Shown piece after piece: positions 21,772-60,237 of a DNA stretch of 64,000 nt (positions are counted from its first letter, which is position 1; the number at the start of each line of letters is the position of its first letter). The notes below the pieces were generated by a model. The model was given only the letters and a program-made list of their open reading frames with translations. It ran no database searches and had not been told where the DNA came from. Source of the stretch: Algoriphagus halophilus (GTDB taxonomy: Bacteria; Bacteroidota; Bacteroidia; Cytophagales; Cyclobacteriaceae); assembly GCF_900129785.1 (NCBI RefSeq), contig NZ_FSRC01000003.1, forward strand, positions 372,001 through 436,000. Reading direction: 5' to 3'. The translations under genes were made by a program, and so were the position numbers.

Positions 21772-22875
21772 CTAAATTTTAAAGAAGATTTTTTTGCGGT
21801 AAAGAAAATAGCAAAGACCCCACATGGCAGCCAAGGTACAGAATGCTGTGATGATATCTAATGAATGCTCTCCAAAACCAATTGGCTCAAGAAAACCGGT
21901 GGTGAAAATCCCTATAGTACTATTAAGCCAGCGATGTCCGAGTATTTCTGCAAACAGGTAAATGAAGATGGAGTTCATTCCTACTATGATGAAAGGAAAA
22001 GCTTTGGATTGGTATTTTTTTACGTCAATCAGCCAGTAGGAAAAAGCTAAGGCCAATAAAGCCCATCCACCAGAAGCAAATGCGAAGGAGCTGGTGCTGA
22101 TTCTCTTAATAATAGGAGTAATTCCGATCAAGTCAAGCCCATATCCTAAGATTAAGCCTATAATTCCTCCAATAACAAATGTCTTAATTTTATCTTTCGG
22201 CAGACTTTTGGATAAAAGGATATTTCCGCAAATAGCTCCCCAAATGGTATGTGCCGCTGTAGGAATGCAGTTGATTGCTACCCAGCCCCCATTGTTGATC
22301 TTACCCATCAAAATCATGTCGATATAGTTACCGAAATTCGTTCCATGTTCATAAGGAACTTCGGGGTTATACCATCTATAAAGAACTTCTGTAAGGGCTA
22401 ATAAGGCTATGGAAACTCCCAATTGAATTTTCCAGGATTTCTTAAGGAGGAAGAAGGTTACTAAAATCGTGAAGGAAAGTTGGGTCAATACATTCCAAAG
22501 TTCAAATACTAATTTACCTGCATAGATGCAATGGAGTCCAGTGCCAAATAGAAATAACAATAGACATCTTTTAAGGATATGTCTTGTTACTTTGGATCGG
22601 TCTTCATGATTTGCTAGTCGTTTATTCAAAGAGAAGGGCATTGCTACACCTACTATAAACATGAAAAAGGGTTGGATCAAATCCCAAAATCGAAGTCCGT
22701 TCCAAGGATGGTGAGTAAACTGCGTGAAAAGGGAATTTAAAAATCCAGGTTCCGGAAAAGCCTCTAATAAACTATGATAAACTGAAGCAGCTTCTGCCAC
22801 TAACAGAAACATGGTCAGCCCTCTAAAGGTGTCCAGTGAAACAAGCCTTCCAGACTTGATTAAAGTTGAATCCAT
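21772..22875 (-). CDS. DUF5009/HGSNAT-like membrane acyltransferase
   Basis: 367 residues with about ten predicted helices. The N-terminal signature RLVSLDTFRGLTMFLLV, then HHPWNGLRFWDLIQPFFMF and GVAMPFSL, matches the COG4299/DUF5009 group related to heparan-alpha-glucosaminide N-acetyltransferase. Members are thought to acetylate amino sugars across the membrane using acetyl-CoA; the human enzyme uses a luminal His. Here it would act on an amino sugar such as glucosamine or on cell-wall sugars, but the substrate is not shown. It is transcribed alone and ends at a bidirectional terminator. Confidence 0.86.
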   Translation of the reverse strand: MDSTLIKSGRLVSLDTFRGLTMFLLVAEAASVYHSLLEAFPEPGFLNSLFTQFTHHPWNGLRFWDLIQPFFMFIVGVAMPFSLNKRLANHEDRSKVTRHILKRCLLLFLFGTGLHCIYAGKLVFELWNVLTQLSFTILVTFFLLKKSWKIQLGVSIALLALTEVLYRWYNPEVPYEHGTNFGNYIDMILMGKINNGGWVAINCIPTAAHTIWGAICGNILLSKSLPKDKIKTFVIGGIIGLILGYGLDLIGITPIIKRISTSSFAFASGGWALLALAFSYWLIDVKKYQSKAFPFIIVGMNSIFIYLFAEILGHRWLNSTIGIFTTGFLEPIGFGEHSLDIITAFCTLAAMWGLCYFLYRKKIFFKI

Positions 22876-45391: not shown

Positions 45392-48300
45392 ATGAAAAAT
45401 GTTTACAAAAGTCTAAGCGCCTTATTTTTGCTCTTAGTTCTTTCCAGTGCGGCAACATTTGCACAAAAAACCGTGACTGGAACAGTGTTGGACGAGTATG
45501 ATGTAGGACTTCCAGGAGTTTCAGTTCTTGTGAAGGGAACCACTACAGGTACTGCCACTGATATTGACGGGAAATTCTCCCTCAATGTCCCTAATGATCA
45601 AGCTGTATTGGTCTTTTCTTTTATTGGTTACGGCTCAGTAGAGCAGTTAGTAGGCAATAGAAGTATAATTGATGTCAAATTAAATCCAGATGAAACTACA
45701 CTTTCTGAACTTGTAGTAACTGGTTATACAATTGACAGCAGAAGAGAAACCACTGGTGCGATTGCCACAGTGGATCCTAAAGATTTGACAATAATTCCAA
45801 CAGGTAACGTAGAACAGACTCTTCAGGGTCGTGTTTCTGGTGTTACAGTAATTACAAACGGTCAGCCAGGTACTTCTTCCATTATTCGTGTTAGAGGTTT
45901 TGGAGCATTTGGTGGTAATGAGCCACTTTATGTAGTGGATGGAGTTCCTGTAGGTTCTACCGACTTCTTGAATCCAGATGACATTGCTTCAACTACTGTA
46001 TTGAAAGATGCTGCTGCTGCTTCCATTTATGGTGCGCGTGCTGCAAACGGTGTAATTATTTATACTACTAAAAGAGGAAGAAGAGGAAATCAGAAAATCC
46101 GAGTTGATTACAACGGTATGTTCGGTGTTACTACACCAGGCAAAGGATTGGATATGATGAATCCTCAAGATTTCGCAGAATACACTTGGTTGGCTGAAAC
46201 GAACCAAGCAATCATTGATGGAAGAGATCCAGCTTATGGACATCCTCAATTTGGTTCTGGAACTTCCCCAGTTTTGCCATATTATATTAATGTAGGAGGA
46301 GCTTCAGGTGTTCCTGGACCTTTTACAGCGGCACAATTAGAAGAAGAAAGAGCCAAGTATAACATTGATCCTACCAAAGGTCCAGTTTATCAAGTGGTGA
46401 GAGCTGCTACAGGTGAAGGTACTGATTGGTATGATGCTTTGACTAGAAATGCTCCATTGAACAGACATTCCATTGGTTTGAATGGTGGTTCTGAGACTTC
46501 AAGATTCTACATCGGTTTCGGTTACCAAGATCAAGCTGGTATCATGATCGGTAATAGTTTCAAGAGATATTCCTTAAGAGCTAACTCTGAATTTGATGTG
46601 ACCAAAAGATTCAGAATTGGTGAGAACTTCCAGGCTACTTATCGTCAGGTGTTAGGCCAGCAAGGTGGAACAGGCGGTAGAGGTGTTTCTGATGATGAAA
46701 ATGATATTCTTCAGGCCTTCAGAATGCCTTCCATTATCCCAGTTTATGATGAATTTGGTGGATATGGTGGTACTGCAGCAAGAGGTTTTAATAACCCAAG
46801 AAACCCTGTAGCTAACAGAGATGGTCAAAAAGACAATAGAAACTTCAATGCCAATATCTTCGGTAACGTTTATGCAGAATACGATATCCTTGATGATTTG
46901 ACTTTCAGAACATCTATGGGTGGTCAGTATAACAACTATTATTTCTGGGGTTATTCAAGACTACAATATGAAAACTCTGAAAACAACTCTGCTTTTGGAT
47001 ACAATGAAGGTGCAGGTTTCGTATTCGGATGGACTTTCACAAACACGCTATCTTGGAAACATACATTTGGAAAGCATGCATTTGATGTGATTGCTGGTCA
47101 AGAAGCGTTAAATACCGGTGCTGGTAGAAATATGAGTGCAAGTGGACAGAATCCATTCTCAAGAGATCCTGACTTCATTAATATTTCAAACCTTCCAGTG
47201 TCATCAAGACAGGTTAACTCTGATTTATTTAAAGGAGTAAACTTTAACTCTTACTTCGGTAGAGTGAATTATACCTTCAATGACAAGTATTTAGTAAGTG
47301 CGGTTGTTAGACGAGATGGATCTTCAAGATTTGGTTCTAACTCAAGATATGGTGTGTTCCCAGCATTCTCTGCTGCGTGGAGATTATCTTCCGAACCATT
47401 CCTTCAGAGTGCTACATGGATTGATGACTTGAAGATTCGTGGTGGTTGGGGTCAAATGGGTAACTCCAATAACGTAGACCCTAATAACCAATACTCTCTA
47501 TTCGGAGGTACTGTTGGTGCATCTTCTTATGACGTTAATGGTTCCAACAGTTCTGCCTTAATTGGTTTCAGAAGAACTAGAATTGGTAACCCTAATGCAC
47601 AGTGGGAGACTGCTGTAACTCAAAACATTGGTTTTGATGGTACATTCTTCAATGGTCGTTTAGACGTGATTTTTGATTGGTGGAAAAAGGATACCAAAGA
47701 CTTGCTCTTTACTGTACCTATCCCATTGACTGCAGGTTCTAATGCCGCTCCTCCAGCTGTAAACATCGGTCAGATGCTGAACAGAGGTTTGGATTTATTT
47801 GTGTCTACCAGAGGTAACCTCACAAGTGATTTCACTTATGAGTTGACAGTAACAGGAAGTACGTTGAAAAACGAGATTGTTTCTCTAGCTCCTGGATTGG
47901 AAATCATTACTTCTGTAAACCCAGCATATCGTGGAATTACTCCTATCAGAAACCAGGTGGGTGAGCCATTGTCTACTTTCTTTGGTTATGATGTAGAAGG
48001 TTTATTCAGAAATGCTGAAGATGTAGCTAACCATGCTGTACAAGATGGTGCTGCACCAGGTAGATTTAAGTTTAGAGATGCTGATGGTGATGGTACAATC
48101 ACTCCTGCTGACCGTGTAGTTCTTGGAAATCCAGTTCCTGATTTTACAGGTGGTGTGAACTTCACTGTTGGTTACAAAGGACTTGATCTTTCTGCATATT
48201 TCTATACTTCTATTGGTAATGAGATTTGGAATCAGTCTAAGTGGTTTACTGATTTCTTCCAGACATTTGAAGGAGCTGCAATTTCTGAGCGTTTGAAAGA

Positions 48301-48640
48301 TGCTTGGACTCCTGAGAATTTGGATGCTGAAATTCCTGTAGTAGAAAAGACTTCAAACTTCTCTACTTCTAACGTAGCTAATTCATTCTACGTAGAAGAC
48401 GGTTCTTACTTAAGATTACAGAACGTAAGCTTAGGTTATACGCTTCCAGCTTCTTTATTGGAAAGATGGAGAATGGAAAGAGTTAGAGTTTTTGCATCTG
48501 CAAACAACTTATTTACTATCTCTGGATATTCAGGATTGGATCCAGCTGTAGGTGGAGATGCGGATTTGAGCTTCGGTATTGACGTTGGTAACTACCCAGT
48601 TACACGTGGTTATACTTTTGGTATCAATCTTAGCTTCTAA
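45392..48640 (+). CDS. SusC/RagA family TonB-linked outer-membrane protein
   Basis: 1082 residues from MKNVYKSLSALFLLL; MFMKN two codons earlier is possible, and the longest frame reaches back to 45299. Signal peptide LSSAATFAQ. CarboxypepD_reg-like domain (TVTGTVLDEYDVGLPGVSV, GTATDIDGKFSL), then plug with LVVTGY, QGRVSGVTV, RVRGFGAFGGNEPLYVVDG and DAAAASIYGARAANGVI, and a 22-strand type barrel. A Ca-like loop RDADGDGTITPAD is near 900, as in many SusC proteins. It imports a large substrate with SusD. Start of the susCD operon. Confidence 0.96.
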   Translation: MKNVYKSLSALFLLLVLSSAATFAQKTVTGTVLDEYDVGLPGVSVLVKGTTTGTATDIDGKFSLNVPNDQAVLVFSFIGYGSVEQLVGNRSIIDVKLNPDETTLSELVVTGYTIDSRRETTGAIATVDPKDLTIIPTGNVEQTLQGRVSGVTVITNGQPGTSSIIRVRGFGAFGGNEPLYVVDGVPVGSTDFLNPDDIASTTVLKDAAAASIYGARAANGVIIYTTKRGRRGNQKIRVDYNGMFGVTTPGKGLDMMNPQDFAEYTWLAETNQAIIDGRDPAYGHPQFGSGTSPVLPYYINVGGASGVPGPFTAAQLEEERAKYNIDPTKGPVYQVVRAATGEGTDWYDALTRNAPLNRHSIGLNGGSETSRFYIGFGYQDQAGIMIGNSFKRYSLRANSEFDVTKRFRIGENFQATYRQVLGQQGGTGGRGVSDDENDILQAFRMPSIIPVYDEFGGYGGTAARGFNNPRNPVANRDGQKDNRNFNANIFGNVYAEYDILDDLTFRTSMGGQYNNYYFWGYSRLQYENSENNSAFGYNEGAGFVFGWTFTNTLSWKHTFGKHAFDVIAGQEALNTGAGRNMSASGQNPFSRDPDFINISNLPVSSRQVNSDLFKGVNFNSYFGRVNYTFNDKYLVSAVVRRDGSSRFGSNSRYGVFPAFSAAWRLSSEPFLQSATWIDDLKIRGGWGQMGNSNNVDPNNQYSLFGGTVGASSYDVNGSNSSALIGFRRTRIGNPNAQWETAVTQNIGFDGTFFNGRLDVIFDWWKKDTKDLLFTVPIPLTAGSNAAPPAVNIGQMLNRGLDLFVSTRGNLTSDFTYELTVTGSTLKNEIVSLAPGLEIITSVNPAYRGITPIRNQVGEPLSTFFGYDVEGLFRNAEDVANHAVQDGAAPGRFKFRDADGDGTITPADRVVLGNPVPDFTGGVNFTVGYKGLDLSAYFYTSIGNEIWNQSKWFTDFFQTFEGAAISERLKDAWTPENLDAEIPVVEKTSNFSTSNVANSFYVEDGSYLRLQNVSLGYTLPASLLERWRMERVRVFASANNLFTISGYSGLDPAVGGDADLSFGIDVGNYPVTRGYTFGINLSF

Positions 48641-48692
48641 GAGAACAAAAGAATCAGAATCGAGTTATAGACAATATAATTGATTAAAAAAA

Positions 48693-50423
48693 ATGAAGAA
48701 TTATAAATTAAAAATCGGAGCACTTTTGTCCTCAGCAGTCATGATGGTGGCAGTTAGCTGTAGCGATGATTTTCTAGATGTGCCGCCGACAGGTTTACTT
48801 GCAGAAGCGCAGTTAACATCACTTGGAGGTATTGATGCCTCTTTGATAGCTGCTTATTCTCAAGTCAATGGTCGGGGAAATAGATTAGGTTCTCCATCCA
48901 ATTGGGTTTGGGGAAGTATTAGAGGTGGTGAAGCTAATAAGGGTACTGACCCTGGTGATTTTACCACAATCAACCCTATCCAGCGTTTCGAAAATAATGC
49001 TGCGGGTGGTGATATGGGTTCTAAATGGAACGTTTGTTACGAGGGTATTGCCCGTGCAAATAACGTTTTGAGACTTCTTGAAAGTGCGCAAGAAGATGTG
49101 ACTGATGCAGATAAAATTAGAATATCTTCTCAGGCTCGTTTCTTAAGAGCACATTTTTACTTTGAGTTGAAAAGGGATTATAACAATACTCCTTATGTTG
49201 ACGAGACAGTAGATTATGGAAGTGGCTTAGAAGATATCAGTAACAATCAAGATCTATGGCCTTTTATTGAGGCTGATCTTAAGTATGCTGTTGATAATTT
49301 GCCTGCAACTCAATCTCAAGTGGGTAGAGTTAACTCTTGGGCTGCTAAAGCTTATTTAGGTAAAGTATACTTGTATCAAAACAAATTCTCTGAAGCAAAA
49401 TCAATGTTTGATGATGTTATCGCGAATGGTGTTACAAGTAATGGTTTGAAGTATGGTCTAGTAGATTATTATGACGATATGTTCAGAGGTGCAAATGATA
49501 ACCACCAAGAGTCTGTTTGGGCTTATCAAGCAGCTGCTGGTACTGGTTCTGTATTGAATGCAAACCCTGAGTTTGACTTGAACTTCCCTTACAATACTGG
49601 TCCTTCTGGTCCAGGTAACTGTTGTGGATTCTTCCAGCCAAGCTTTACTTTCGTAAATGCATTTAGAACAAGCAATGGTTTGCCTTTGCTAGATAAAACA
49701 TACAATGATCCTGCTAATCAGGTTAAAAACGATATGGGATTGGTATCAGCTGACCCATTCACTCCAGATGCAGGTCCTCTTGATCCAAGATTGGATCATA
49801 CAGTAGGTAGAAGAGGTATTCCTTATCTTGATTGGCAAGATCATCCAGGTGCTGCTTGGATCAGAAATCAACCAAACGGTGGACCATATTCTCCTAAGAA
49901 GTATGTTTACCAAAAAGCTGAAGAAGGATCTTATCAAGATAATAGTTCTTGGACTCCAGGTTATACTGGTATCAACTTCATGATCATTCGATTTGCTGAT
50001 GTTCTATTGATGGCTGCTGAAGCTGAGATAGAGACTGGTGGATTAGAGAAAGCTCGTGAATATGTAAATAGAGTAAGAACTAGAGCAATTAATTCTAAGC
50101 TTATGAGAGAAAATGGAGATATGGCAGCTAACTATCAGATTAGCACTTATGATTCTCCATGGTCTGATGCTGATCTAGCTAGAAGAGCGGTTAGAATGGA
50201 AAGAATGCTTGAACTTGGAATGGAAGGTCATAGATTCTATGATCTTGTAAGATGGAATATTGCGAAAGAAGAACTTGATTTCTACTTCGCTTTGGATGGT
50301 AAGCTATTAGCTGCTGCTTTGGGTGGTGCATCCTATTCTGAAAAATTCAAGTATGTTCCAATTCCACAAGATCAAATAGATTTGGTTGGATCTGATATTT
50401 TGATACAAAATCCAGGTTTCTAA
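48693..50423 (+). CDS. RagB/SusD family lipoprotein
   Basis: 576 residues; signal ending at AVSC (Cys23). SusD pattern: FLDVPPTGLLAE after the Cys, then helix-rich TPR-like sequence with RFLRAHFYFELKRDY and WAAKAYLGKVYLYQNKFSEA. The C-terminal part has FADVLLMAAEAEIETG and MERMLELGMEGHRFYDLVRW. It caps the SusC barrel on the outer surface and captures substrate. Follows SusC by 52 bases; ends at a terminator, so the pair forms one unit. Confidence 0.96.
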   Translation: MKNYKLKIGALLSSAVMMVAVSCSDDFLDVPPTGLLAEAQLTSLGGIDASLIAAYSQVNGRGNRLGSPSNWVWGSIRGGEANKGTDPGDFTTINPIQRFENNAAGGDMGSKWNVCYEGIARANNVLRLLESAQEDVTDADKIRISSQARFLRAHFYFELKRDYNNTPYVDETVDYGSGLEDISNNQDLWPFIEADLKYAVDNLPATQSQVGRVNSWAAKAYLGKVYLYQNKFSEAKSMFDDVIANGVTSNGLKYGLVDYYDDMFRGANDNHQESVWAYQAAAGTGSVLNANPEFDLNFPYNTGPSGPGNCCGFFQPSFTFVNAFRTSNGLPLLDKTYNDPANQVKNDMGLVSADPFTPDAGPLDPRLDHTVGRRGIPYLDWQDHPGAAWIRNQPNGGPYSPKKYVYQKAEEGSYQDNSSWTPGYTGINFMIIRFADVLLMAAEAEIETGGLEKAREYVNRVRTRAINSKLMRENGDMAANYQISTYDSPWSDADLARRAVRMERMLELGMEGHRFYDLVRWNIAKEELDFYFALDGKLLAAALGGASYSEKFKYVPIPQDQIDLVGSDILIQNPGF

Positions 50424-50443
50424 ACCTAGATTTGGAAATAATT

Positions 50444-50477
50444 AAAAAGAGAAGGTCTTTGGCCTTCTCTTTTTGTT
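50444..50477 (+). terminator. Rho-independent terminator after susD
   Basis: AAAAAGAGAAGG (50444-50455) pairs with CCTTCTCTTTTT (50463-50474), loop of 7 bases, followed by a T-rich tract. Confidence 0.9.
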
Positions 50478-50562
50478 TTTTTAACTACATAATCACTTTT
50501 ATTTTTTCTCATATCTACCAAAAATGCTAATTTGAAGCCAATCATACCCAATTTTATCCATT

Positions 50563-53500
50563 ATGAAATCCCAGTATTTTCTCTTTTTGGGAGCCTTACT
50601 AATCTTGGTAAGCTCCTGTCAAAAAGAGTCAAGTTTATTTGAATTAAAGTCTCCGGAATCTACCGGAATTGACTTTGCAAACAATATTGTAGAAACAGAC
50701 TCCTTTAACATTCTCACCGATGAATACATATTTAATGGTGGAGGATTAGCCATCGCAGATTTTGATAATAATGGATATCCAGATGTTTTTTTTACTGGAA
50801 ATCAAGTGCCTAATAAGCTTTTTTTAAATCAAGGAGGGTTTAAATTTAAAGACGTTTCTTCTGAGGCAGGCATTGAAGCTGCTAACAGGTGGTGTACCGG
50901 AACTACTGCTGTTGATATCAATCAAGATGGTTTGATGGATCTTTATGTGGCTGCTGCCATGATGAAAGGTGAAGAAGAACGCAATAATTTACTTTTTGTA
51001 AATCAAGGAGTTGATGCGAACGGAAAAGTAGTCTTCAAGGAAATGGCTTCCCAATATGGTATTGCTGATAGTGGTAATGGAATGGGGGCAGCTTTTATTG
51101 ATTATGATCTAGATGGTGATTTGGATTTGTATGTTCTCAACAATGAGCAAAGCAGAGTTACCCCAAGTAATTATAAAGAGAAAATTGTAGATGGAAGTGC
51201 TATTAATAATGATGCATTCTATAGAAATAATGGAGATGGGACGTTTACCAATGTAACGCTAGAAGTAGGGATCACTATTGAAGGCTTTGGTTTAGGGTTG
51301 TTGATTGCTGATATCAACAATGATGGATGGCCCGATATACATGTTAGTAATGACTACGTCACTAATGACATTCTTTATATCAATAACCAAGATGGTACAT
51401 TTTCAAATAAAATCAGCCAGGCTTTAAGACATCAAAGTCAATTCTCTATGGGATCAGATATCGCTGATTTTAATAATGATGGATTGCCTGATATTTTCAC
51501 TTTAGACATGTTGGGGGAGGGGAATTATAGAAAGAAAACTACCATCGGAAATAATGTATATCAGACTTACATCAACAACGAGCAATGGGGTTACGAATAC
51601 CAGTATGTAAGAAATATGTTACATATGAATAATGGACCCGACATGCCTTTTAGTGAAATTGGAATGATGGCTGGAGTATATCAGACAGACTGGAGTTGGG
51701 CGCCTTTGTTCGGTGATGTGGATAACGATGGGATGAGAGATCTGCTCGTCACCAATGGATTTCCAAGAGATATTACTGATAAGGATTTTGCAAATTATCG
51801 TGCAGATGTAGGAAGTATTGCTACTACGAGGCAATTATTGGATTCCATTCCTATTGTCAAAATTCCCAATTATGCGTTTAGAAATGTGGGCAATTTGGAA
51901 TTTGAAGACACAGGAGCTGAATGGGGTTTGAGTAAACCTTCATTTTCAAACGGTGCTGCCTTAGTTGATTTTGATTTGGACGGGGATCTGGATTATGTGG
52001 TTAATAATATCAATGATCCAGCCTTTGTTTTTGAAAATAAACTTTCAGAAGAAAAAGAAAAAGGGAATTACCTACGGATTCAATTAAATGGAACTGCTGC
52101 AAATCCTCAAGGATTAGGGTCAAAATTAACGCTTGAGTTGAAAGACGGCACTACTTTATACCAAGAACAACAAGTTGTAAGAGGATATATGTCCTCCATT
52201 GATCCGATATTGCATTTTGGTCTTGGGGCTAATCCTGAGGTAGAAAAGTTAACGATTATTTGGCCTGACGGTAAATTGGAATCTCTTTCTAATGTATCCG
52301 GAAATCAGGTTATTACTTTGGATTATAAGAATGCTTCCAATGGGAAAGCAAATAGGGCAATTCTGAACTATCATGCTGGACCAACTTTATTTTCTGAAGT
52401 TTCAGCGTCATTAGGGATAAACTATACGCATCAAGAGGAGGATAAAGTAGATTTTTATATTCAGCGGACCATTCCTCATAAACTGACACAATATGGTCCT
52501 AGTTTGGCAGTGGGAGATATCAATGGAGATGGGATCGAAGATTTGTTGGTTGGATCTGCAAGTGGCTATTTTCCAAAAGCTTATTTTCAAAATCAAAGTG
52601 GTGAGTTTGAAGAGGTGGATATATTGAAGGGAGAAAATCCAGTCTTTGAAGAAATGGGTATGTTGCTGGTAGACATCGACAACGATTCAGATTTGGATTT
52701 ATATTTAGTAAGTGGAAGTAATGAGTTTTTGCCTGAATCTGCGGAATATGGGGATCGATTATATCTAAATGATGGGCGTGGTGGATTTACACTTGACAAG
52801 AATTTTTCTTCTGTAAAAGCAAGTGGATCCACAGTCAGAGCGGCTGATTTCGATGGAGACGGTTTCTTGGATTTGTTTGTAGGTGGAAGAGCTCCAGTTT
52901 CCCAATATCCAATGCCTGAAAAGAGTTTTTTATTAAAAAACAACAATGGAAGTCTGGAAGATGTGACGGAAAATTTAGCGCCTGGTCTAAGAGAAATAGG
53001 AATGGTGACTGATGCAGTTTGGTCCGATATTGATTCAGATGGTCAAGTAGACCTGGTGGTAGTTGGAGAATTAATGGCGATCACCATATTCAAAAATACT
53101 AATGGAGAGTTTACCAAATTGGAAAGTTCGGGATTAGAGGACTATTTGGGTTGGTGGAACTCCATATCTACCGGAGATTTTGATCAAGATGGAGATACAG
53201 ATTTTATAGTGGGGAATTTGGGTGCAAATAACCCGCATCACCCGAGTGAAGAGATGCCAGTTAAAGTCTATGCAAAAGACTTTGATAAAAATGGAAGTGT
53301 TGACCCAGTGACTTTTGCTTACTATAAAGATCGAGAAGGTAATTATAAATCGTATCCAAGTCATTTCTGGGGAGATTTATATGGTCAAAGCACCCTGTTT
53401 AGAAAGAAATACGAGCGTTACAAAACTTATGCTTTAAGTACAGAAGAAGATCTATTTACTCCCGAAGAGAAAGAAGGAGCGTTGATCTTAACTGGTAATT

Positions 53501-54084
53501 ATGATAATTCGGCATATGTTGAAAACTTAGGAAACGGGCAGTTTAAGTTAAAAGCATTGCCTAGAATTGCTCAGGTAGGACCGGTTAATGGAGTTGTTTC
53601 TGAAGATTTTGATCAGGATGGGAATTTGGATGTTGCCTTAATTGGTAATGATTATGGAAATGAAATTTTTATCGGGAAACTTGATGCCCATATTGGCTTA
53701 ATTCTTAAGGGAAATGGGCAGGGTGATTTTGAGCCAATGAAAGTTTTGGAAAGTGGATTTTTGGTGCCTGGAGATGGAAAAGCTTTAGTGAAAATACCTT
53801 CTGCTCAAGGCTCTCCACTGCTTGTTGCCTCTCAGAATAGAAGTGATTTAAAAGTATTTAAAACCCAAAGTCCGAAAGGGAAAAGTTTCAGTCCTGGATT
53901 AGGGGTCATGGCAGTATTGTTAGAACTAGAAAACGGAAAGACACAAAGAATAGAAACCACCTTTGGTTCTGGTTTTCTTTCTCAATCTACTCGTGAAATA
54001 GCCATTCCAAATGGTACAAAGGGAATTAAGACCATAGACTACCAAGGTGAAATGGAAATAATTGATCTTAACTCCCTGGATTAA
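50563..54084 (+). CDS. CRTAC1-like FG-GAP repeat lipoprotein with ASPIC/UnbV domain
   Basis: 1173 residues. Lipoprotein signal LLILVSSC with Cys19. The first half holds FG-GAP/VCBS repeats with Ca loops: DFDNNGYPDVFF, DINQDGLMDLYV, DYDLDGDLDLYV, DINNDGWPDIHV, DFNNDGLPDIFT. An ASPIC/UnbV domain follows (~500-590: GSKLTLELKDGTTLYQEQQ, then WPDGKLESL). A second set of repeats comes after ~640 (DINGDGIEDLLV, DIDNDSDLDLYL, DFDGDGFLDLFV). Forms beta-propellers, likely binding sugars or proteins outside the cell. Such genes often follow susCD in Bacteroidota; a terminator lies between, so it may have its own promoter. Confidence 0.93.
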   Translation: MKSQYFLFLGALLILVSSCQKESSLFELKSPESTGIDFANNIVETDSFNILTDEYIFNGGGLAIADFDNNGYPDVFFTGNQVPNKLFLNQGGFKFKDVSSEAGIEAANRWCTGTTAVDINQDGLMDLYVAAAMMKGEEERNNLLFVNQGVDANGKVVFKEMASQYGIADSGNGMGAAFIDYDLDGDLDLYVLNNEQSRVTPSNYKEKIVDGSAINNDAFYRNNGDGTFTNVTLEVGITIEGFGLGLLIADINNDGWPDIHVSNDYVTNDILYINNQDGTFSNKISQALRHQSQFSMGSDIADFNNDGLPDIFTLDMLGEGNYRKKTTIGNNVYQTYINNEQWGYEYQYVRNMLHMNNGPDMPFSEIGMMAGVYQTDWSWAPLFGDVDNDGMRDLLVTNGFPRDITDKDFANYRADVGSIATTRQLLDSIPIVKIPNYAFRNVGNLEFEDTGAEWGLSKPSFSNGAALVDFDLDGDLDYVVNNINDPAFVFENKLSEEKEKGNYLRIQLNGTAANPQGLGSKLTLELKDGTTLYQEQQVVRGYMSSIDPILHFGLGANPEVEKLTIIWPDGKLESLSNVSGNQVITLDYKNASNGKANRAILNYHAGPTLFSEVSASLGINYTHQEEDKVDFYIQRTIPHKLTQYGPSLAVGDINGDGIEDLLVGSASGYFPKAYFQNQSGEFEEVDILKGENPVFEEMGMLLVDIDNDSDLDLYLVSGSNEFLPESAEYGDRLYLNDGRGGFTLDKNFSSVKASGSTVRAADFDGDGFLDLFVGGRAPVSQYPMPEKSFLLKNNNGSLEDVTENLAPGLREIGMVTDAVWSDIDSDGQVDLVVVGELMAITIFKNTNGEFTKLESSGLEDYLGWWNSISTGDFDQDGDTDFIVGNLGANNPHHPSEEMPVKVYAKDFDKNGSVDPVTFAYYKDREGNYKSYPSHFWGDLYGQSTLFRKKYERYKTYALSTEEDLFTPEEKEGALILTGNYDNSAYVENLGNGQFKLKALPRIAQVGPVNGVVSEDFDQDGNLDVALIGNDYGNEIFIGKLDAHIGLILKGNGQGDFEPMKVLESGFLVPGDGKALVKIPSAQGSPLLVASQNRSDLKVFKTQSPKGKSFSPGLGVMAVLLELENGKTQRIETTFGSGFLSQSTREIAIPNGTKGIKTIDYQGEMEIIDLNSLD

Positions 54085-54087
54085 TGA

Positions 54088-54849
54088 TTATTTGTAAAGT
54101 TTGTCCGGTTGAACCTCGCAGATCTCTACGATTAACTCAGCTACTTTGTTGGTGACATCTTCGAAATAAAGCCTTCCTTTTTCTGGGGAGGCTTTTTTTG
54201 GATTTCCAATTCCAGTATCCTCCGTTACTTCAGACCATTTCCGTTCGGCCCAAGCCCATTTTTCTCTCAATCCGGAAATCACTGATTTTTTTTCCGCTCC
54301 ATTACCTGCCTCATTTAGAGGAGAAACTAAATGAGGTTGAAGGTGCATGATCAAGGAAGTTTCCATTTCATCAGCGTGATCTCCCTTTTCTTCAAAATAT
54401 TTGGTTTTATCCAATGCTTGAAACCAATTGCAAGTGAATAATAGCATGTCGGGAAAACTAAGTCCTAATTCTCTGAGCATGGTTTTAAAATCATTGCCAC
54501 CATGACTATTTACGATCAAGAGCTTTTTCACTCCCTGCCTGTCTAGAACAGTGATCAAATCTCTTAAAATGGCAAGTTGAGTACTAGGATTAAGATTCAT
54601 GTCTAAGTAGATGTCAGACTGACCAGTATTCACTCCGAAAGGGATGGTAGGTAAAACCATTACCTTGGCTCCTTTTTCCCAGGCTTTTCTTCCGCTTTCC
54701 TCAGCAACTCCATCGGCCTCGTAAATGTCTGTACCATAAGGCAAGTGATAATTATGAGCTTCGGTAGCTCCCCATGGAAGAACAGCTAGTTCAAATCGAT
54801 CGGATTTTAAATTTTTCCAACTTGCTTCTTTTAAAATATATGGTCTCAT
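54088..54849 (-). CDS. Creatininase-family amidohydrolase
   Basis: 253 residues from MRPYILKEASW; a start six codons earlier is possible. Metal-site motifs: LPWGATEAHNYHLPYGTDIY (E-x-H pattern), IPFGVNTGQSDIY, VNSHGGNDFKTML and ADEMETSLIMHL (Glu ligand). The family holds creatininase and MftE-like peptidase, and also N-formyl or amide hydrolases; the substrate is unknown. It is the only - strand gene in a run of + strand genes of related theme, ending 3 bases from the FG-GAP gene stop. Position next to glycosylasparaginase suggests amide-bond cleavage. Confidence 0.9.
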   Translation of the reverse strand: MRPYILKEASWKNLKSDRFELAVLPWGATEAHNYHLPYGTDIYEADGVAEESGRKAWEKGAKVMVLPTIPFGVNTGQSDIYLDMNLNPSTQLAILRDLITVLDRQGVKKLLIVNSHGGNDFKTMLRELGLSFPDMLLFTCNWFQALDKTKYFEEKGDHADEMETSLIMHLQPHLVSPLNEAGNGAEKKSVISGLREKWAWAERKWSEVTEDTGIGNPKKASPEKGRLYFEDVTNKVAELIVEICEVQPDKLYK

Positions 54850-54938
54850 TTTGAGGGGTTTTAGCAATGAATTGACAGAAGGTTCACATTTTTAAAGGCA
54901 ATTTTGATAATTTGAAGCCTCATTCGAAATTAAGTTTT

Positions 54939-55916
54939 ATGTCTGAAAGAAGAAAGTTTATTAAGAAGTCCATTTTAGGTTCTGCGATTTTAGTTCCAGG
55001 GATTTCAGGTGCGTTTGCCAATTCCTCCAAAAAAGAATTAATAGGTGAAAAACCATTGATATTATCAACTTGGAATCATGGCTTGCCTGCCAATGCTGCT
55101 GCTATTTCAAAATTAAAAGAAACAGGAAGTATCCTAGATGCAGTGGAAGCTGGGGTAATGGATACCGAATTAGATATGGATAACCTTTCTGTCGGTCTAC
55201 AAGGATTACCAGATAGAGAGGGGATTACCACTTTGGATGCCTCTATCATGACTGGAGATGGTTCTTGTGGATCAGTGGCGTTTGTTCGCCAGGTGAAACA
55301 CCCAATTTCATTAGCCAGGGTGGTTATGGAGAAGACTCCACATGTCATGATCGTAGGTGAAGGGGCTAGACAGTTAGCTATTTCGGAAGGATTTCCAATA
55401 GAAAAAGAGGAGCTTAGCCCAAAGGCTAAGGAGGCCTATGAAAAATGGAAGGTAACCAGTAAATACAAGCCGGTGATCAATATTGAAAACCATGATACCA
55501 TTGGTATGATTGGAATTGATAAAAATGGTCAAATGGCCGGAAGTTGTACCACAAGTGGACTTGCTTATAAGATGCACGGGAGAGTGGGAGATAGCCCAAT
55601 TATCGGAGCAGGATTATACGTGGATAATGAGGTTGGAGCTGCCACCGCTACCGGACTTGGAGAAACTATTATCAGAGTATGTGGAAGTTTCTTAATCGTT
55701 GAGCTGATGAGACAAGGTAGGACTCCACAAGAAGCTTGTGAGGAGGCTGTCAGAAGACTTGTTTCTAAAAGCAAAAACATCAAAGATGTTCAGGCGGGAT
55801 TCCTAGCGATCAATAAAGAAGGACAAGTAGGAGCTTATGCAATTCATCCAGGATTTAATTTCGCTCAAGGTACTTTAAGCTCCAATGCATTGATAGATTC
55901 AAAAAGCTACTTTTAA
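54939..55916 (+). CDS. Exported N4-(beta-N-acetylglucosaminyl)-L-asparaginase (glycosylasparaginase)
   Basis: Ntn-hydrolase, 325 residues from the ATG at 54939; the frame also reads from a TTG at 54912. Cleaves the GlcNAc-Asn bond of N-glycan remnants after self-cleavage before a Thr. The precursor site is HDTIGMIGID with Thr187, followed by SCTTSGLAYKMHGRVGDSPI and GATATGLGE, the family active-site pattern. The N-terminus MSERRKFIKKS is Tat-like (ERRKF), so export folded is likely, to periplasm or beyond. The two other Ntn asparaginase groups (isoaspartyl-peptidase) differ in these motifs. Followed one base later by CutC; a + strand unit. Confidence 0.93.
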   Translation: MSERRKFIKKSILGSAILVPGISGAFANSSKKELIGEKPLILSTWNHGLPANAAAISKLKETGSILDAVEAGVMDTELDMDNLSVGLQGLPDREGITTLDASIMTGDGSCGSVAFVRQVKHPISLARVVMEKTPHVMIVGEGARQLAISEGFPIEKEELSPKAKEAYEKWKVTSKYKPVINIENHDTIGMIGIDKNGQMAGSCTTSGLAYKMHGRVGDSPIIGAGLYVDNEVGAATATGLGETIIRVCGSFLIVELMRQGRTPQEACEEAVRRLVSKSKNIKDVQAGFLAINKEGQVGAYAIHPGFNFAQGTLSSNALIDSKSYF

Positions 55917-55917
55917 G

Positions 55918-56664
55918 ATGGCGAAAATAACACTTGAAGCTCCCGTATTTAGTGTAGAAGCTGCTTTGGAGGCAGCAACTTATGGAGTAAATAGACTTGA
56001 ATTATGTTCTAATTTTCCAGAAGGTGGAGAAACACCAAGTGCGGGCATGCTCAAGTTTCTAAAATCTGAAGTGGATATCCCGGTTTTTGTAATGATTAGG
56101 CCTAGTGGAGGTAATTTTGCTTATACACAAAAGGAGCTAATGGTTATGAAAAGGGATATTGAATTGCTTGGGGAGTTGGGGGCTGATGGGTTTGTATTTG
56201 GTGTTCTAACCAATGAAGGGAGTGTAAATGTTGCTGCTTGTGAAACATTAATCCGGACTGCCTCAGGTAGGCCTTGTACTTTCCATAGGGCATTTGATGC
56301 ATTGTCAGATCAATTTGAAGCACTTGAAATAATTAAGAGCTTGGGGTTTCAAAGAATACTTACTTCAGGCGGTAAAAACTCAGTAACTGAGGGGTTGGAT
56401 GTGATTCTTGCCTTAATTAATAAGGCAAATGGAGGAATTTCCATCATGCCTGGTGGAGGAACTAAGCCTGAACATGTTTCGGTTTTATCTAAAACTGGCC
56501 ATTTAACAGATATCCACGCTTCATGTAAAACCTGGAAAAAAAGCCCAAACAACTATGTCAATCCAGATGTTTCTTTTTCTGATGACCCAGAAGCTTTCCT
56601 GAAAGATTTAAGGGTAGATCAAGAAACTGTATCCCAATTTTTAGATGCGATCGAATCTATATGA
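55918..56664 (+). CDS. cutC: CutC family protein
   Basis: TIM-barrel protein of 248 residues, named for copper homeostasis in E. coli. Conserved segments: NRLELCSNFPEGGETPS, MIRPSGGNFAYT, PCTFHRAFDAL, RILTSGGKNSV and DIHASCKTWKK. Residues such as Arg in IRP and His/Arg/Asp in FHRAFD line a barrel pocket, as an enzyme would. The N-terminal Cys-Cys I recall from E. coli CutC (ICCYS) is replaced by APVFS here. Joined to glycosylasparaginase (1-base gap) and overlapping the next gene by 4 bases. A role in the amide/glycan pathway is more likely than copper handling; that is inference. Confidence 0.92.
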   Translation: MAKITLEAPVFSVEAALEAATYGVNRLELCSNFPEGGETPSAGMLKFLKSEVDIPVFVMIRPSGGNFAYTQKELMVMKRDIELLGELGADGFVFGVLTNEGSVNVAACETLIRTASGRPCTFHRAFDALSDQFEALEIIKSLGFQRILTSGGKNSVTEGLDVILALINKANGGISIMPGGGTKPEHVSVLSKTGHLTDIHASCKTWKKSPNNYVNPDVSFSDDPEAFLKDLRVDQETVSQFLDAIESI

Positions 56665-58214
56665 ATTCTTTCCGTTTAATAGCCATTTATTCACTGATTC
56701 TGCTAGGAGCGGTTTTCTGTAAGCCGATTTCTGAGCGAAAACAACCTCCGCCAACGCTTGAGCAGCTAGCCTCCGAAGACTTAAATTTGAATGGAGAGCA
56801 ATTAGCAAATGCATATTGTGCAACTTGTCATCTAAAGCCAGAGCCTCAGATTTTAGACAAATCTACATGGAAAGACAAAGTTCTGCCAGATATGAGGAAA
56901 AGGATGGGGCTTTATTTAGAAGAGGATTTTGGTACTATCATGCCCATTGATATGGATGTGCCAAAAGGGATTTATTCTGATATTCCTTTTATAAATAAAG
57001 ATAATTGGGAAAAACTCAAGACCTATTATTTAGACAATGCGCCAGATATTCCCAACCCACAAGCTGATAAGGCCTCCATCAATTTAGGGGTTCCTGGTTT
57101 CGAAATAGTCCGGCCTAAATTCACAAACTTTTACCCTGATTTAGTTACACTTTTGAGAGTGGAACCTAGTTCTGGTAAACTTTGGTTGGGACATCGTTTC
57201 AAATCGATTTTTGTGCTAGATCCAAGTCGTAATTTTCAAATCTTGGATTCTATCGCGACAGATACCGCTCCAATAGATATTCATTGGGATAAGAGCTCCA
57301 ATTCATTTGAATTGTTGACCATGGGGGTGATGGATCCCTCTAATGATTCCTCTGGGGTTGTAAATGAATTTTATAAATCAGGACAAGATTGGAAAAGTAA
57401 GCCCGTTTTGGAAAACCTGAAAAGACCAGTCAATCTGGAATATGCAGATTTTAATGGAGATGGGATACTGGATAAAGTAGTCTGCGAGTTTGGGAATCAT
57501 GTTGGAGAGTTAAGTTTGTATCTATCGAATGGGGATCATTGGGAGAAACAGGTATTGAAAAATTCTCCAGGAGCTAGGAGGGTAGTCATTGAGGATTTGG
57601 ATGATGATGGTGATTTGGATATTCTAGTTTTAATGACACAAGCAAATGAAGGTTTTTTTGCTTTCTTAAATCAAGGGGAGGGAGAATTTAGAGAAAAGAT
57701 CTTATTAAGATTTCATCCAGCATTTGGATCAAGTGATTTCCAATTTCTGGATGTTAACCAAGACGGCCTAAAGGATCTTATTTTGGTCAATGGGGATAAT
57801 GCGGATCTATCTCAGGTTTTGAAAAGCTTTCATGGAGTGAGAATCTTTTTAAACCAAGGTGATTTAGATTTTGAACCTTCTTGGTTTTATCCCATGCATG
57901 GGGCGAGTGGCCTTGAAATAGATGATTTTGATCAAGATGGAGATCAAGATTTTTTTGTACTCTCATTTTTTCCAGATCAAAATCAAAGCCCAAAACAAAA
58001 CCTACTTTATTTTCAACAGAATGAGAAGATGGATTTTCAAGCTTATTCACCAGTAATTGAAGAGGATTCACATTGGCTTACAATGACCAAAGGGGATTTA
58101 GATGCCGATGGTGACCTTGATTTGGTGGTGGGAGTTTTTGAATTTGATGATTTATATAAACAACCTCAGGAGGCATGGTCTCCTATTGTGGTTTTTAAAA
58201 ATCAAAAGAAATAA
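56661..58214 (+). CDS. FG-GAP repeat protein with N-terminal heme CxxCH site
   Basis: 517 residues. Hydrophobic N-terminus SLILLGAVFC with Cys20, a non-standard lipobox (Phe at -1). A heme site CATCH is at residues 53-57, within LANAYCATCHLKPEP, followed by the ~65-residue helical part. Then FG-GAP-like repeats with Ca loops: DFNGDGILDKVV, DLDDDGDLDILV, DVNQDGLKDLIL, DFDQDGDQDFFV, DLDADGDLDLVV. So a c-type cytochrome-like domain is fused to a beta-propeller, an uncommon mix. Its ATG lies within cutC, so it is translated in the same operon. Possible exported electron-transfer or binding protein; function unknown. Confidence 0.88.
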   Translation: MNSFRLIAIYSLILLGAVFCKPISERKQPPPTLEQLASEDLNLNGEQLANAYCATCHLKPEPQILDKSTWKDKVLPDMRKRMGLYLEEDFGTIMPIDMDVPKGIYSDIPFINKDNWEKLKTYYLDNAPDIPNPQADKASINLGVPGFEIVRPKFTNFYPDLVTLLRVEPSSGKLWLGHRFKSIFVLDPSRNFQILDSIATDTAPIDIHWDKSSNSFELLTMGVMDPSNDSSGVVNEFYKSGQDWKSKPVLENLKRPVNLEYADFNGDGILDKVVCEFGNHVGELSLYLSNGDHWEKQVLKNSPGARRVVIEDLDDDGDLDILVLMTQANEGFFAFLNQGEGEFREKILLRFHPAFGSSDFQFLDVNQDGLKDLILVNGDNADLSQVLKSFHGVRIFLNQGDLDFEPSWFYPMHGASGLEIDDFDQDGDQDFFVLSFFPDQNQSPKQNLLYFQQNEKMDFQAYSPVIEEDSHWLTMTKGDLDADGDLDLVVGVFEFDDLYKQPQEAWSPIVVFKNQKK

Positions 58215-58334: not shown

Positions 58335-58796
58335 ATGGTAAAGAGTTTCCAAGGAGTAAGAATGGTGGAGCCCAAAAAATCTCCTGCAACCCAAATTTTA
58401 GTAAAAGATCATATGAGTACCAATTTGGTCACTTTTCATCCGGATGATACCATTGACAAGGTGTTGGACGTTTTGACTAAAAGGAAAATCTCCGGTGCCC
58501 CTGTTGTAGACGAATCAGGTGCTTTGATTGGAATTATTTCAGAGGTGGATTGTTTAAAAGAAATAATAAAAGGCAAGTATACCAATACTCCAAAATTCCC
58601 TGGTAAAGTGAAAGAGCATATGAGTACCGATGTGATTACCTTAGGTCAGGAATTATCGCTTTTTGATGCTGCACAAAAGTTTTTGGAACTAAAAATCAGG
58701 AGATTTCCAGTATTGAAAGATGGAGTGTTAATTGGTCAAATAAGTTTAAGTGATGTCATAAGGGCTTTTCCTAAACTCAAACAAACAACCTGGTAG
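58335..58796 (+). CDS. Two-CBS-domain protein
   Basis: 153 residues; two CBS domains, about 22-80 (VKDHMSTNLVTFHPDDTIDK, then ISGAPVVDESGALIGIISEV) and 92-150 (VKEHMSTDVITLGQELSLFD, then RRFPVLKDGVLIGQISLSDV). Stand-alone CBS pairs bind adenosine ligands and regulate partners; no partner is visible. Cytoplasmic. Ends at a strong hairpin shared with metZ. Confidence 0.92.
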   Translation: MVKSFQGVRMVEPKKSPATQILVKDHMSTNLVTFHPDDTIDKVLDVLTKRKISGAPVVDESGALIGIISEVDCLKEIIKGKYTNTPKFPGKVKEHMSTDVITLGQELSLFDAAQKFLELKIRRFPVLKDGVLIGQISLSDVIRAFPKLKQTTW

Positions 58797-58801
58797 AAAT
58801 A

Positions 58802-58838
58802 GAAAGCGCCCCCATATAATACTTATGGGGGCGCTTTC
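58802..58838. terminator. Bidirectional terminator between CBS gene and metZ
   Basis: A perfect 14-bp stem, GAAAGCGCCCCCAT (58802-58815) with ATGGGGGCGCTTTC (58825-58838), loop ATAATACTT, and T-rich sequence after it. The stem is unusually GC-rich for this region. Confidence 0.9.
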
Positions 58839-58849
58839 ATTTTGATTTT

Positions 58850-60022
58850 TTATTTGGATAAGTGCAAGGCTCTCTCTACATCTTCAATAATATCATCCAC
58901 ATGTTCTAGTCCTACGGATAGTCTTACGAGTCCATCAGAAATCCCGACTCTTGCCCGTTCTTCTACCGATAATTTGCTATGGGTAGTAGAAGCCGGGTGA
59001 GTAATAATACTTCTACTATCCCCTAGATTGGCAGTAATTGAAATCATTTGAAGATGATCAATAAATTTCCTTGCACGCTCTTCTCCACCTTTTACGGTCA
59101 AAGTAATAATGCCTCCACCATGTTTCATTTGTTTGATGGCCAAATGATGTTGGGGATGTGATTTTAAGAAAGGATATTTTACGTTTTCTAATTCTGAATT
59201 CCCTTCAAAATACTGGGCAGTCTTTAAAGCGTTTTCGCAATGTCTGTCCATTCTCACCCCCAGGGTTTCCATACTTTTGGAAAGTATCCAAGCATTAAAT
59301 GGGGAAATAGCAGGCCCAGTATGTCTGGTGAAAAACTGCACTTCCTTCATTAATTCTGCGGTTCCAAGAATCAAGCCTCCAAGCACTCTTCCCTGACCAT
59401 CAATATATTTCGTGGCACTATGGGTGACAATATGTGCGCCCCATTTAGCGGGTTGTTGTAAATAAGGAGTAGCAAAACAATTGTCCACTACCAATATCAG
59501 ATTATGTACCTTGGCGAAGTTGCCCGCCCATTCCAAATCAATAATTTCCAGTCCAGGGTTGGACGGAGTCTCAATAAAAAGCATTTTGGTGTTAGGCTGC
59601 ACTAACTTTTCCCAGTTGTCAATATCAGAAATATCCCCATAAGTTGAGGTGATGCCCCATTTAGGAAATACTCGAGTTAACAATTGGTGCGTAGACCCGA
59701 ACAAAGATCTTGATGCTAGGACATGATCTCCCTGTTGTAATAAAGAAGCAATACTTCCAAACATGGCTGCCATTCCAGATGCTGTGGCAATACCCATCTC
59801 AGTACCTTCTGCTGCACAGATTTTCTCAATTAGATCGCTTGAATTGGGATTGGCATATCTTGAATAAATATTACCCTGTATCTCTTCAGAAAAGGTAGCT
59901 CTTGCTTCTTCGGCAGATTCAAATGTAAAGCTGGAAGTAAGGTAAATCGGAGCTGAATGCTCCTTTTGATTCGATTTCGACGGAGTGATTCGGATGGAAT
60001 TAGTTTCAAAATGCTTGCTCAT
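58850..60022 (-). CDS. metZ: O-succinylhomoserine sulfhydrylase (PLP, Cys/Met metabolism)
   Basis: 390 residues from ATG at 60022 (a GTG one codon earlier is the longest frame). PLP fold type I: YSRYANPNSSDLIEKICAAE, SGMAAMFGSI, the PLP Asp in VVDNCFATPYLQ and the Schiff-base Lys in HSATKYIDGQGRVLGG. The IDGQGRVLGG segment typifies MetZ-type sulfhydrylase, which makes homocysteine directly from O-succinylhomoserine and sulfide. Cystathionine gamma-synthase or O-acetylhomoserine enzyme are close alternatives. A SAM riboswitch in its leader supports methionine synthesis. Confidence 0.95.
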   Translation of the reverse strand: MSKHFETNSIRITPSKSNQKEHSAPIYLTSSFTFESAEEARATFSEEIQGNIYSRYANPNSSDLIEKICAAEGTEMGIATASGMAAMFGSIASLLQQGDHVLASRSLFGSTHQLLTRVFPKWGITSTYGDISDIDNWEKLVQPNTKMLFIETPSNPGLEIIDLEWAGNFAKVHNLILVVDNCFATPYLQQPAKWGAHIVTHSATKYIDGQGRVLGGLILGTAELMKEVQFFTRHTGPAISPFNAWILSKSMETLGVRMDRHCENALKTAQYFEGNSELENVKYPFLKSHPQHHLAIKQMKHGGGIITLTVKGGEERARKFIDHLQMISITANLGDSRSIITHPASTTHSKLSVEERARVGISDGLVRLSVGLEHVDDIIEDVERALHLSK

Positions 60023-60133
60023 CACGGAATGCCTTATTTATTGGTATGACATAGATAGGCTCTAGTTAGTTTGAGAAAGTCAAACCAAAAGCGGTCAAAT
60101 CGAACTAAAAAGGGGATTTTTGTTTTTAAAGCC

Positions 60134-60237
60134 AATTTATAGTTCCCGCTAAGGGTAGGACTTGGCACCTTTCCGCCCAAGGGGGATGGTTGCCAGAGGG
60201 TCAATGAGCCTATTCTCTCGCCTCTTCTTTATAAATC
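60134..60237 (-). ncRNA. SAM-I (S-box) riboswitch in metZ leader
   Basis: On the - strand: P1 5' arm ATTTATA (60236-60230) pairs with TATAAAT (60141-60135). Between them stand AAGAAGAGGCGAGAGAATAGG, then CTCATTGACCCTCTGGCAACC, and AAGGTGCCAAGTCCTACCC. The GGCAACC and GGTGCCAA-TCCTACC blocks and their order match the S-box core, though the 5' part (GAAGAGGCGAGAG) differs from the AAGAGAGGTGGAGGG typical of Firmicutes. It lies ~110 bases before the metZ ATG. Ligand-bound folding is expected to reduce expression when SAM is high; the expression platform between 60133 and 60023 has no clear terminator, so translational control is a possibility. Confidence 0.85.

Follow-up and report, generated by a model that had tools for sequence, protein, structure and literature searches.

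Glycosylasparaginases (AGA) split N-acetylglucosaminyl-asparagine (GlcNAc-Asn) into aspartate and 1-amino-N-acetylglucosamine (1-amino-GlcNAc). The CutC family is widespread, animals included, and its molecular function is unsettled. Genes for one member of each family adjoin in Algoriphagus halophilus, in a 64,000-nucleotide stretch of contig NZ_FSRC01000003.1 (positions 372,001 to 436,000; hereafter the window), downstream of a SusC-SusD (SusCD) importer locus. The closest described pathway is that of Lactobacillus casei, which uses fucosyl-GlcNAc-Asn by means of a glycosylasparaginase and a GlcNAc kinase encoded in its alf-2 cluster (alfHC, asdA, alfR2, pepV, asnA2, sugK). According to the sections of that paper at hand (PMC6960285), the first product is 1-amino-GlcNAc, which its authors regard as non-metabolizable and expect to break down on its own at acid pH. 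That bacteria use GlcNAc-Asn compounds is already published, and the statement in a preliminary description of the window that no such pathway had been described was wrong in kind. The alf-2 system differs from the window in that, in the same sections, AGA is cytoplasmic, uptake is by a major facilitator superfamily (MFS) protein, SusCD is absent and CutC is unnamed in the main text (zero occurrences).

Four further systems resemble parts of the locus. The Elizabethkingia meningoseptica glycosylasparaginase (PDB 1p4k, 1ayy, 2gac) shares with the window enzyme a 280-residue match, the autoproteolysis site and export, but operon, gene cluster and CutC get zero mentions in the available part of PMC13204146. 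The window CutC belongs to its family by the PF03932 profile and by its CutC barrel fold (PDB 3iwp, 1twd, 2bdq, 4r9x); the family is annotated for copper, whereas here it stands in an amino-sugar setting. In the GlcNAc operons of Alphaproteobacteria (nagA, NagB-II-like SIS, ROK/GlcNAc kinase, murQ and the glycoside hydrolase (GH) family GH20), CutC adjoins these families or is elsewhere fused to them, but AGA was undetected in 20/26 genomes searched. The SusCD importers of Bacteroidota polysaccharide utilization loci (PULs) share the SusC and SusD profiles with the window locus, which, unlike them, has no glycoside hydrolase and has an FG-GAP/ASPIC lipoprotein as neighbour.

We found that the interval consists of two adjacent modules, and that its strongest signal is CutC, on which the preliminary description did not dwell. 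Module A comprises AGA, cutC, in some loci a heme FG-GAP gene, and a CBS-domain gene, plus a creatininase-family gene that diverges from AGA; module B comprises susC and susD and then the FG-GAP/ASPIC lipoprotein gene. Gene content was read from open reading frames and Pfam/NCBIfam profile searches. AGA (54939..55916, forward strand; PF01112, Asparaginase_2), whose revised start is most likely the ATG at 54939, opens the unit. The TIM-barrel gene cutC (55918..56664, forward; PF03932, 197 bits) starts 1 base past the AGA stop codon and overlaps by 4 bases the gene for an FG-GAP protein (56661..58214, forward; PF13517) whose translation carries one c-type heme motif (CATCH). With this 1-base gap and 4-base overlap, AGA-cutC-FG-GAP reads as an operon, which probably extends to the gene for a two-CBS-domain protein (58335..58796, forward; PF00571), a conserved AGA-CutC neighbour by synteny, as its last gene. 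In our best explanation of the two modules, which we consider probable, module A serves GlcNAc-Asn catabolism and CutC is an enzyme of amino sugars or amino-sugar phosphates.

CutC is coupled with AGA both statistically and positionally in two phyla. Among 247 Bacteroidota genomes (AGA threshold E <= 1e-40) we detected AGA in 120, CutC in 76 and both in 74; one genome first scored without AGA (G155) carries it 144 bases from CutC, so that 75/76 CutC genomes have AGA. The two genes lay within 2 kb of each other in 36 of the 74 pairs, spread over 8 families, with AGA upstream of CutC on the same strand in 30 and a divergent arrangement in 6. The window's genus supplied 4 of the 36, and G155 brings the total to 37 and the families to nine; the other 38 pairs were farther apart or on separate contigs. 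In a sample of 60 genomes from the window's family, which overlaps slightly with the first, AGA was present in 43/44 CutC genomes, three genomes had AGA without CutC, and 27/43 pairs were linked. Among 249 Pseudomonadota genomes (AGA threshold E <= 1e-37), CutC was found in 33, AGA in 10 and both in 8 (p 1.6e-6, the Fisher tests ignoring phylogeny), one of the 8 (G529) resting on a 36%-identical AGA match. In six of these 8 pairs the genes were less than 2 kb apart (36 to 1952 bases), and three arrangements occurred: AGA before CutC, CutC before AGA, and divergent. The Caulobacter centre of this sample (G324) was chosen for having CutC; without it the counts are 7/9 and 5/7. A single-chain AGA-CutC fusion was found neither among the open reading frames of loci L034-L073 and L114-L193 nor, as PF01112, among the Pfam domains of the CutC fusion proteins described below, and CutC is absent from the long AGA frames of G237 and G089. 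A literature search, with co-mentions checked in part, found no published link of CutC with AGA or GlcNAc catabolism.

CutC also stands near amino-sugar genes in regions with no AGA in view. Of 67 plasmid records with a CutC match we opened 8 regions, some picked for informative-looking listed neighbours, and 5/8 were alphaproteobacterial GlcNAc clusters lacking a visible AGA. Sinorhizobium (S.) meliloti has amidase-ROK-CutC adjoining nagA, SIS, GlcNAc kinase and murQ; Peteryoungia and Loktanella have GH20-M81-MFS-CutC, Qingshengfaniella has murQ and ROK-CutC, and Kozakia has nagA, MFS, ROK, CutC, GH20 and nagB. A Hymenobacter plasmid region contains ROK, GH92, AGA-CutC and GH2. We then scanned genomes with an alignment of four plasmid CutC proteins and took the best 80 of 578 loci, mostly from Rhizobiales. 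A ROK gene lay at most 500 bases from CutC in 50/80, and nagA, nagB, SIS, GlcNAc kinase, murQ or GH20 lay within about 8 kb in 43/80, figures that overstate the link because the query sequences already came from GlcNAc clusters. At E <= 1e-15, AGA was not found in 20 of the 26 genomes of this set that were searched whole, and the matches in 4 of the remaining 6, at 31-39% identity, resemble isoaspartyl peptidases. The 33 CutC loci of the Pseudomonadota sample are less biased; among them, 11 had AGA, GH92, GH2, nagA, SIS or a related neighbour, and 2 more had only an adjacent ROK gene. The gene cluster labelled c4 gave no Pfam match in the one member scanned; by NCBIfam it is glucosamine-6-phosphate deaminase-like, above cut-off in L060 and L142 and below it in L133.

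Furthermore, over part of its distribution CutC is fused to amino-sugar genes as well as coupled with them. Our fusion search used the CutC portion of an artificial query 548 residues long, which admitted longer proteins only, and gave 108 proteins. In seven, of which four were rescanned, SIS domains come after CutC; these seven are 66-83% alike and represent one clade. The one fused SIS part tested had NagB-II as its best NCBIfam match, at 334 of 430 bits and so below the cut-off for that name, and among its relatives in the PDB is glucosamine-6-phosphate deaminase 8eol (E 6e-73). ROK and CutC were joined in 5 proteins, 5/5 confirmed by Pfam, with one or both parts incomplete in P0030, P0037 and P0043 and the order reversed in P0037. 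One CutC-GH125 fusion was found, on a short contig; many of the remaining proteins had the CutC domain alone or other partners in single copies. The AlphaFold2 (AF2) model of the window CutC (mean pLDDT 91.9) is nearest in fold to sugar-phosphate barrels of the epimerase/isomerase/synthase kind and resembles the phosphate-binding TIM-barrel sugar-phosphate enzymes, a similarity of fold that by itself shows no function.

We propose that module A serves to break down the GlcNAc-Asn stubs of N-glycoproteins. The exported AGA would split GlcNAc-Asn, yielding aspartate and 1-amino-GlcNAc. CutC, in which no signal peptide is evident, would be cytoplasmic, and we infer that it works at a later step, with GlcNAc or one of its derivatives as substrate. 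It would represent a phosphate-binding type of TIM barrel whose partner is AGA in Bacteroidota and, in Alphaproteobacteria, ROK kinase, NagA or NagB-II-like proteins. A candidate reaction is the hydrolytic cleavage of the C1-N bond in the glycosylamine 1-amino-GlcNAc or in its 6-phosphate; that CutC removes ammonia from these compounds is speculative. Such a reaction would fit with AGA, which makes 1-amino-GlcNAc, with ROK, which could phosphorylate it, and with NagA and NagB, which follow. SusCD could supply substrate in some species and would not be an obligatory part.

Several observations weigh against this proposal, in addition to the disregard of phylogeny, the choice of queries, the sub-cut-off NagB-II name and the limit on fold similarity given above. 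G288 and G041 carry CutC but lack a PF01112 protein. CutC is missing from 46/120 Bacteroidota AGA genomes, indicating that it is dispensable for AGA function. Two of the 8 plasmid CutC loci (Cetobacterium, Parabacteroides) have no amino-sugar gene, and 20 of the 33 Pseudomonadota CutC loci have neither an amino-sugar or N-glycan gene nor an adjacent ROK, although a weak match to ROK lies a few kb off in one of these (L326). Among the 20 are neighbourhoods with argS (5 loci), peroxiredoxin (4) and GNAT (5; L317, L319-L322), one of each being checked with Pfam, which found GNAT in L321. Fusions of CutC to a GNAT acetyltransferase (P0039, P0049, P0052, P0053, P0056, P0057, P0066, P0073, P0085) and to a flavin adenine dinucleotide (FAD) amine-oxidoreductase (P0061, P0063, P0064, P0072, P0075, P0076, P0084, P0086, P0088) number nine each and are not directly predicted by a role in amino-sugar metabolism. 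The two FAD amine-oxidoreductase fusions that carry organism names are from Planctomycetes and Gemmata. In addition, since AGA is exported and CutC has no evident signal peptide, 1-amino-GlcNAc would need uptake.

The glycosylamine reaction alone does not explain CutC in GH20 clusters without AGA, and for these a role as anomerase or epimerase is a reasonable alternative. CutC would then act on amino-sugar phosphates and be needed wherever beta-GlcNAc is released fast, a special case of the amino-sugar role proposed above that we regard overall as possible but rather unlikely. Several Alphaproteobacteria do have CutC with GH20 and no AGA in view, the fusion to a NagB-II-like part points in the same direction, and the modelled fold, with epimerases and isomerases among its nearest relatives, is consistent with it. 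However, free GlcNAc alone does not explain why CutC in Bacteroidota is nearly confined to genomes with AGA.

The preliminary description had read the whole 13 kb as a single importer-plus-hydrolase pathway for glycosyl-asparagine or other amides, in which SusCD imports and creatininase and AGA cleave; the seven genes that it named are all present by Pfam/NCBIfam profiles and translations, but we consider the single pathway unlikely. In the 60 genomes of the family we looked for AGA, CutC, the creatininase, SusD and the heme FG-GAP protein, fetched the loci and labelled their genes from open reading frames and BLAST against a few references, by which small or diverged neighbours are missed. 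The expectation of conserved synteny held within the genus: the full order SusC-SusD-FG-GAP-creatininase-AGA-CutC-FG-GAP-CBS was kept in 3/3 congeners seen (L134, L135, L136), and given this the clustering of these genes exceeds chance. All block genes were likewise kept in L035 and L045, and all except the heme FG-GAP gene in L036 and L039. A single pathway is also favoured by SusD (at least 48% identity), which was found in 19/60 family genomes, 19/19 of them with AGA, and by the creatininase-family gene, which diverges from AGA even where SusCD is elsewhere (L034, L041).

Outside the genus, the halves are separate in many relatives. L034 and L041 keep creatininase-AGA-CutC-FG-GAP-CBS, with the best SusCD-FG-GAP set on another contig (L114, L116); at the level of genomes, G043 (L034 and L114) and G026 have the SusCD-FG-GAP set and AGA on different contigs. 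Close relatives have AGA-CutC-CBS alone (L037, L038, L040, L043, L044, L046) or AGA-CutC (L042), with SusCD missing nearby, and SusC-SusD-FG-GAP sets occur away from AGA also in L117-L121, L123-L125 and L128. Because the halves occur both joined and apart, they represent two modules that adjoin in the genus and in some relatives. In G043 (L034 and L114), the first FG-GAP gene is near the MetC-Pth side of the window order and creatininase-AGA-CutC-FG-GAP-CBS, with the second FG-GAP gene, is elsewhere, which looks like one module relocated as a block. Three relatives (L034, L035, L041) encode a maltose-acetyltransferase-like hexapeptide protein (about 193 residues; one member scanned) between CutC and the heme FG-GAP gene.

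The arrangement of module B argues in the same direction. In the window, susC (45392..48640, forward; a SusC/RagA-family TonB-dependent outer-membrane importer, TIGR04056, 861 bits) and susD (48693..50423, forward; a SusD-family surface lipoprotein, PF07980 and PF14322) are followed by an intrinsic terminator-like hairpin (50443..50475, forward; 15-pair stem and T run, z -4.16) that would close the susCD unit, and the gene for the 1173-residue FG-GAP/ASPIC-UnbV lipoprotein (50563..54084, forward; PF13517, UnbV_ASPIC PF07593) would form a separate unit. A hairpin with a T-rich tail was found in the same gap in 8/8 readable relatives; of the nine tried, L115 was unreadable, its contig having no counterpart of the FG-GAP lipoprotein gene. 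These hairpins have 7 to 15 pairs, lie 32 to 50 bases into the gap and differ in their stem letters. Judged from these sequences, susCD is set apart from the remaining genes by its own conserved terminator-like hairpin. On synteny and the hairpin together we rejected a one-locus pathway with obligatory SusCD. The tandem susC-susD pair is that of a PUL; no glycoside hydrolase profile was matched among the 10 proteins scanned with Pfam between 39580 and 58211, in agreement with the preliminary description, nor were linked carbohydrate-active enzymes found among them.

The creatininase-family gene (54088..54849, reverse strand; PF02633, 195 bits), with its start revised to 54849, is convergent to the lipoprotein gene and divergent from AGA. 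Its product has 3lub as the nearest solved sequence (E 1e-61). A true creatininase was rejected, TIGR04448 scoring 69.4 bits against a cut-off of 235; all three NCBIfam equivalogs matched, creatininase included, fell far below cut-off, and the assignment is to the wider PF02633 family. The gene was found in 28 family genomes, with CutC in 26/28 (p 0.0014); compared by eye, it faces AGA in 8/28 and is away from AGA in 20/28, which speaks against a single pathway. It is near CutC in L130, and both its position near SusCD-FG-GAP without AGA in L121 (G009) and that beside genes for NagB-like and ROK proteins in L133 could be taken in favour of a joint function. Its ties to the amino-sugar or AGA setting are weak.

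The proposal that N-glycan remnants are the substrate fared better than the obligatory importer that came with it, since AGA elsewhere stands beside GH20, GH2 beta-mannosidase, GH92 and ROK genes. Related SusCD-FG-GAP sets in L120 and L124 carry a DUF5009/HGSNAT-like gene, and L124 also GH20; SusCD with FG-GAP lipoproteins may thus import GlcNAc-containing glycans. A DUF5009 protein is also encoded in the window at 21772-22875 (reverse strand), and since DUF5009 matches the HGSNAT-like proteins of L120 and L124 as well, this gene might be GlcNAc-related.

By homology, AGA is an ordinary exported glycosylasparaginase (EC 3.5.1.26). It aligned over 280 residues with the Elizabethkingia structures (1p4k and others; E 4e-104), its closest match, belongs to the N-terminal nucleophile (Ntn) hydrolase fold family and retains the autoproteolytic D-T site (NHDTIG), the position of which is given in the available part of PMC13204146. 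The Tat-like (twin-arginine translocation) export noted earlier is borne out by the N-terminus (SERRKFIKK, from the translation) and by homology to the Elizabethkingia enzyme. An RR start was present in 19 of the 21 homologue N-termini printed, of 81 homologues; the two others were one truncated frame and one 32%-identical match. It seems quite improbable that the enzyme mainly cleaves isoaspartyl peptides or asparagine, which would make the operon one of amino-acid salvage instead of N-glycan stub use: the family does include isoaspartyl peptidases, also matched in the PDB search, but at E ~1e-37 that match is far weaker than the one to glycosylasparaginase, and in relatives AGA adjoins GH20, GH92, GH2, ROK and NagB-like genes (counts drawn from loci partly chosen for AGA-CutC linkage).

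Copper handling by CutC is disfavoured: the annotation, the early E. coli copper-tolerance genetics (cited in the available part of PMC3548706) and the invariant Cys30 speak for a cytoplasmic copper-handling protein placed beside AGA by history, but we hold this to be very unlikely, as the available part of PMC6338753, citing Guo 2014 on the sRNA MicL, credits the tolerance conferred by extra cutC to the sigma-E response, the second near-invariant cysteine (position 9, Cys in 32/33 aligned CutC proteins) is Pro in the window protein and is not Cys in 30/50 Bacteroidota sequences by simple pattern scoring, and amino-sugar genes are among the neighbours and fusion partners of CutC in two phyla. 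A copper chaperone beside a heme protein was likewise disfavoured, because many AGA-CutC loci lack the heme FG-GAP gene.

Downstream of the CBS-domain gene, a bidirectional terminator-like hairpin (58802..58838; 15-pair stem, 9 GC) separates it from a convergent pyridoxal phosphate (PLP)-enzyme gene of Cys/Met metabolism (58850-60025, reverse strand), upstream of which lies an S-adenosylmethionine (SAM) riboswitch (RF00162, 68.5 bits; 60134-60237, reverse strand).

More broadly, and only tentatively, the CutC family from bacteria to animals might consist of amino-sugar enzymes and not primarily of copper proteins, built on a phosphate-binding type of barrel and clearing glycosylamines (1-amino-GlcNAc or its 6-phosphate) or otherwise readying amino-sugar phosphates for NagA and NagB; the AGA-CutC operon would then be the enzymatic completion of a GlcNAc-Asn pathway thought to rely on spontaneous hydrolysis. 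If AGA, ROK kinase and NagB-II-like proteins are indeed the partners of CutC, the list of its candidate substrates narrows to a few amino-sugar compounds, and the old question of what CutC does becomes a bench assay. CutC would also be a candidate enzyme for the GlcNAc-Asn step that is left to spontaneous decay in the sections of PMC6960285 at hand.

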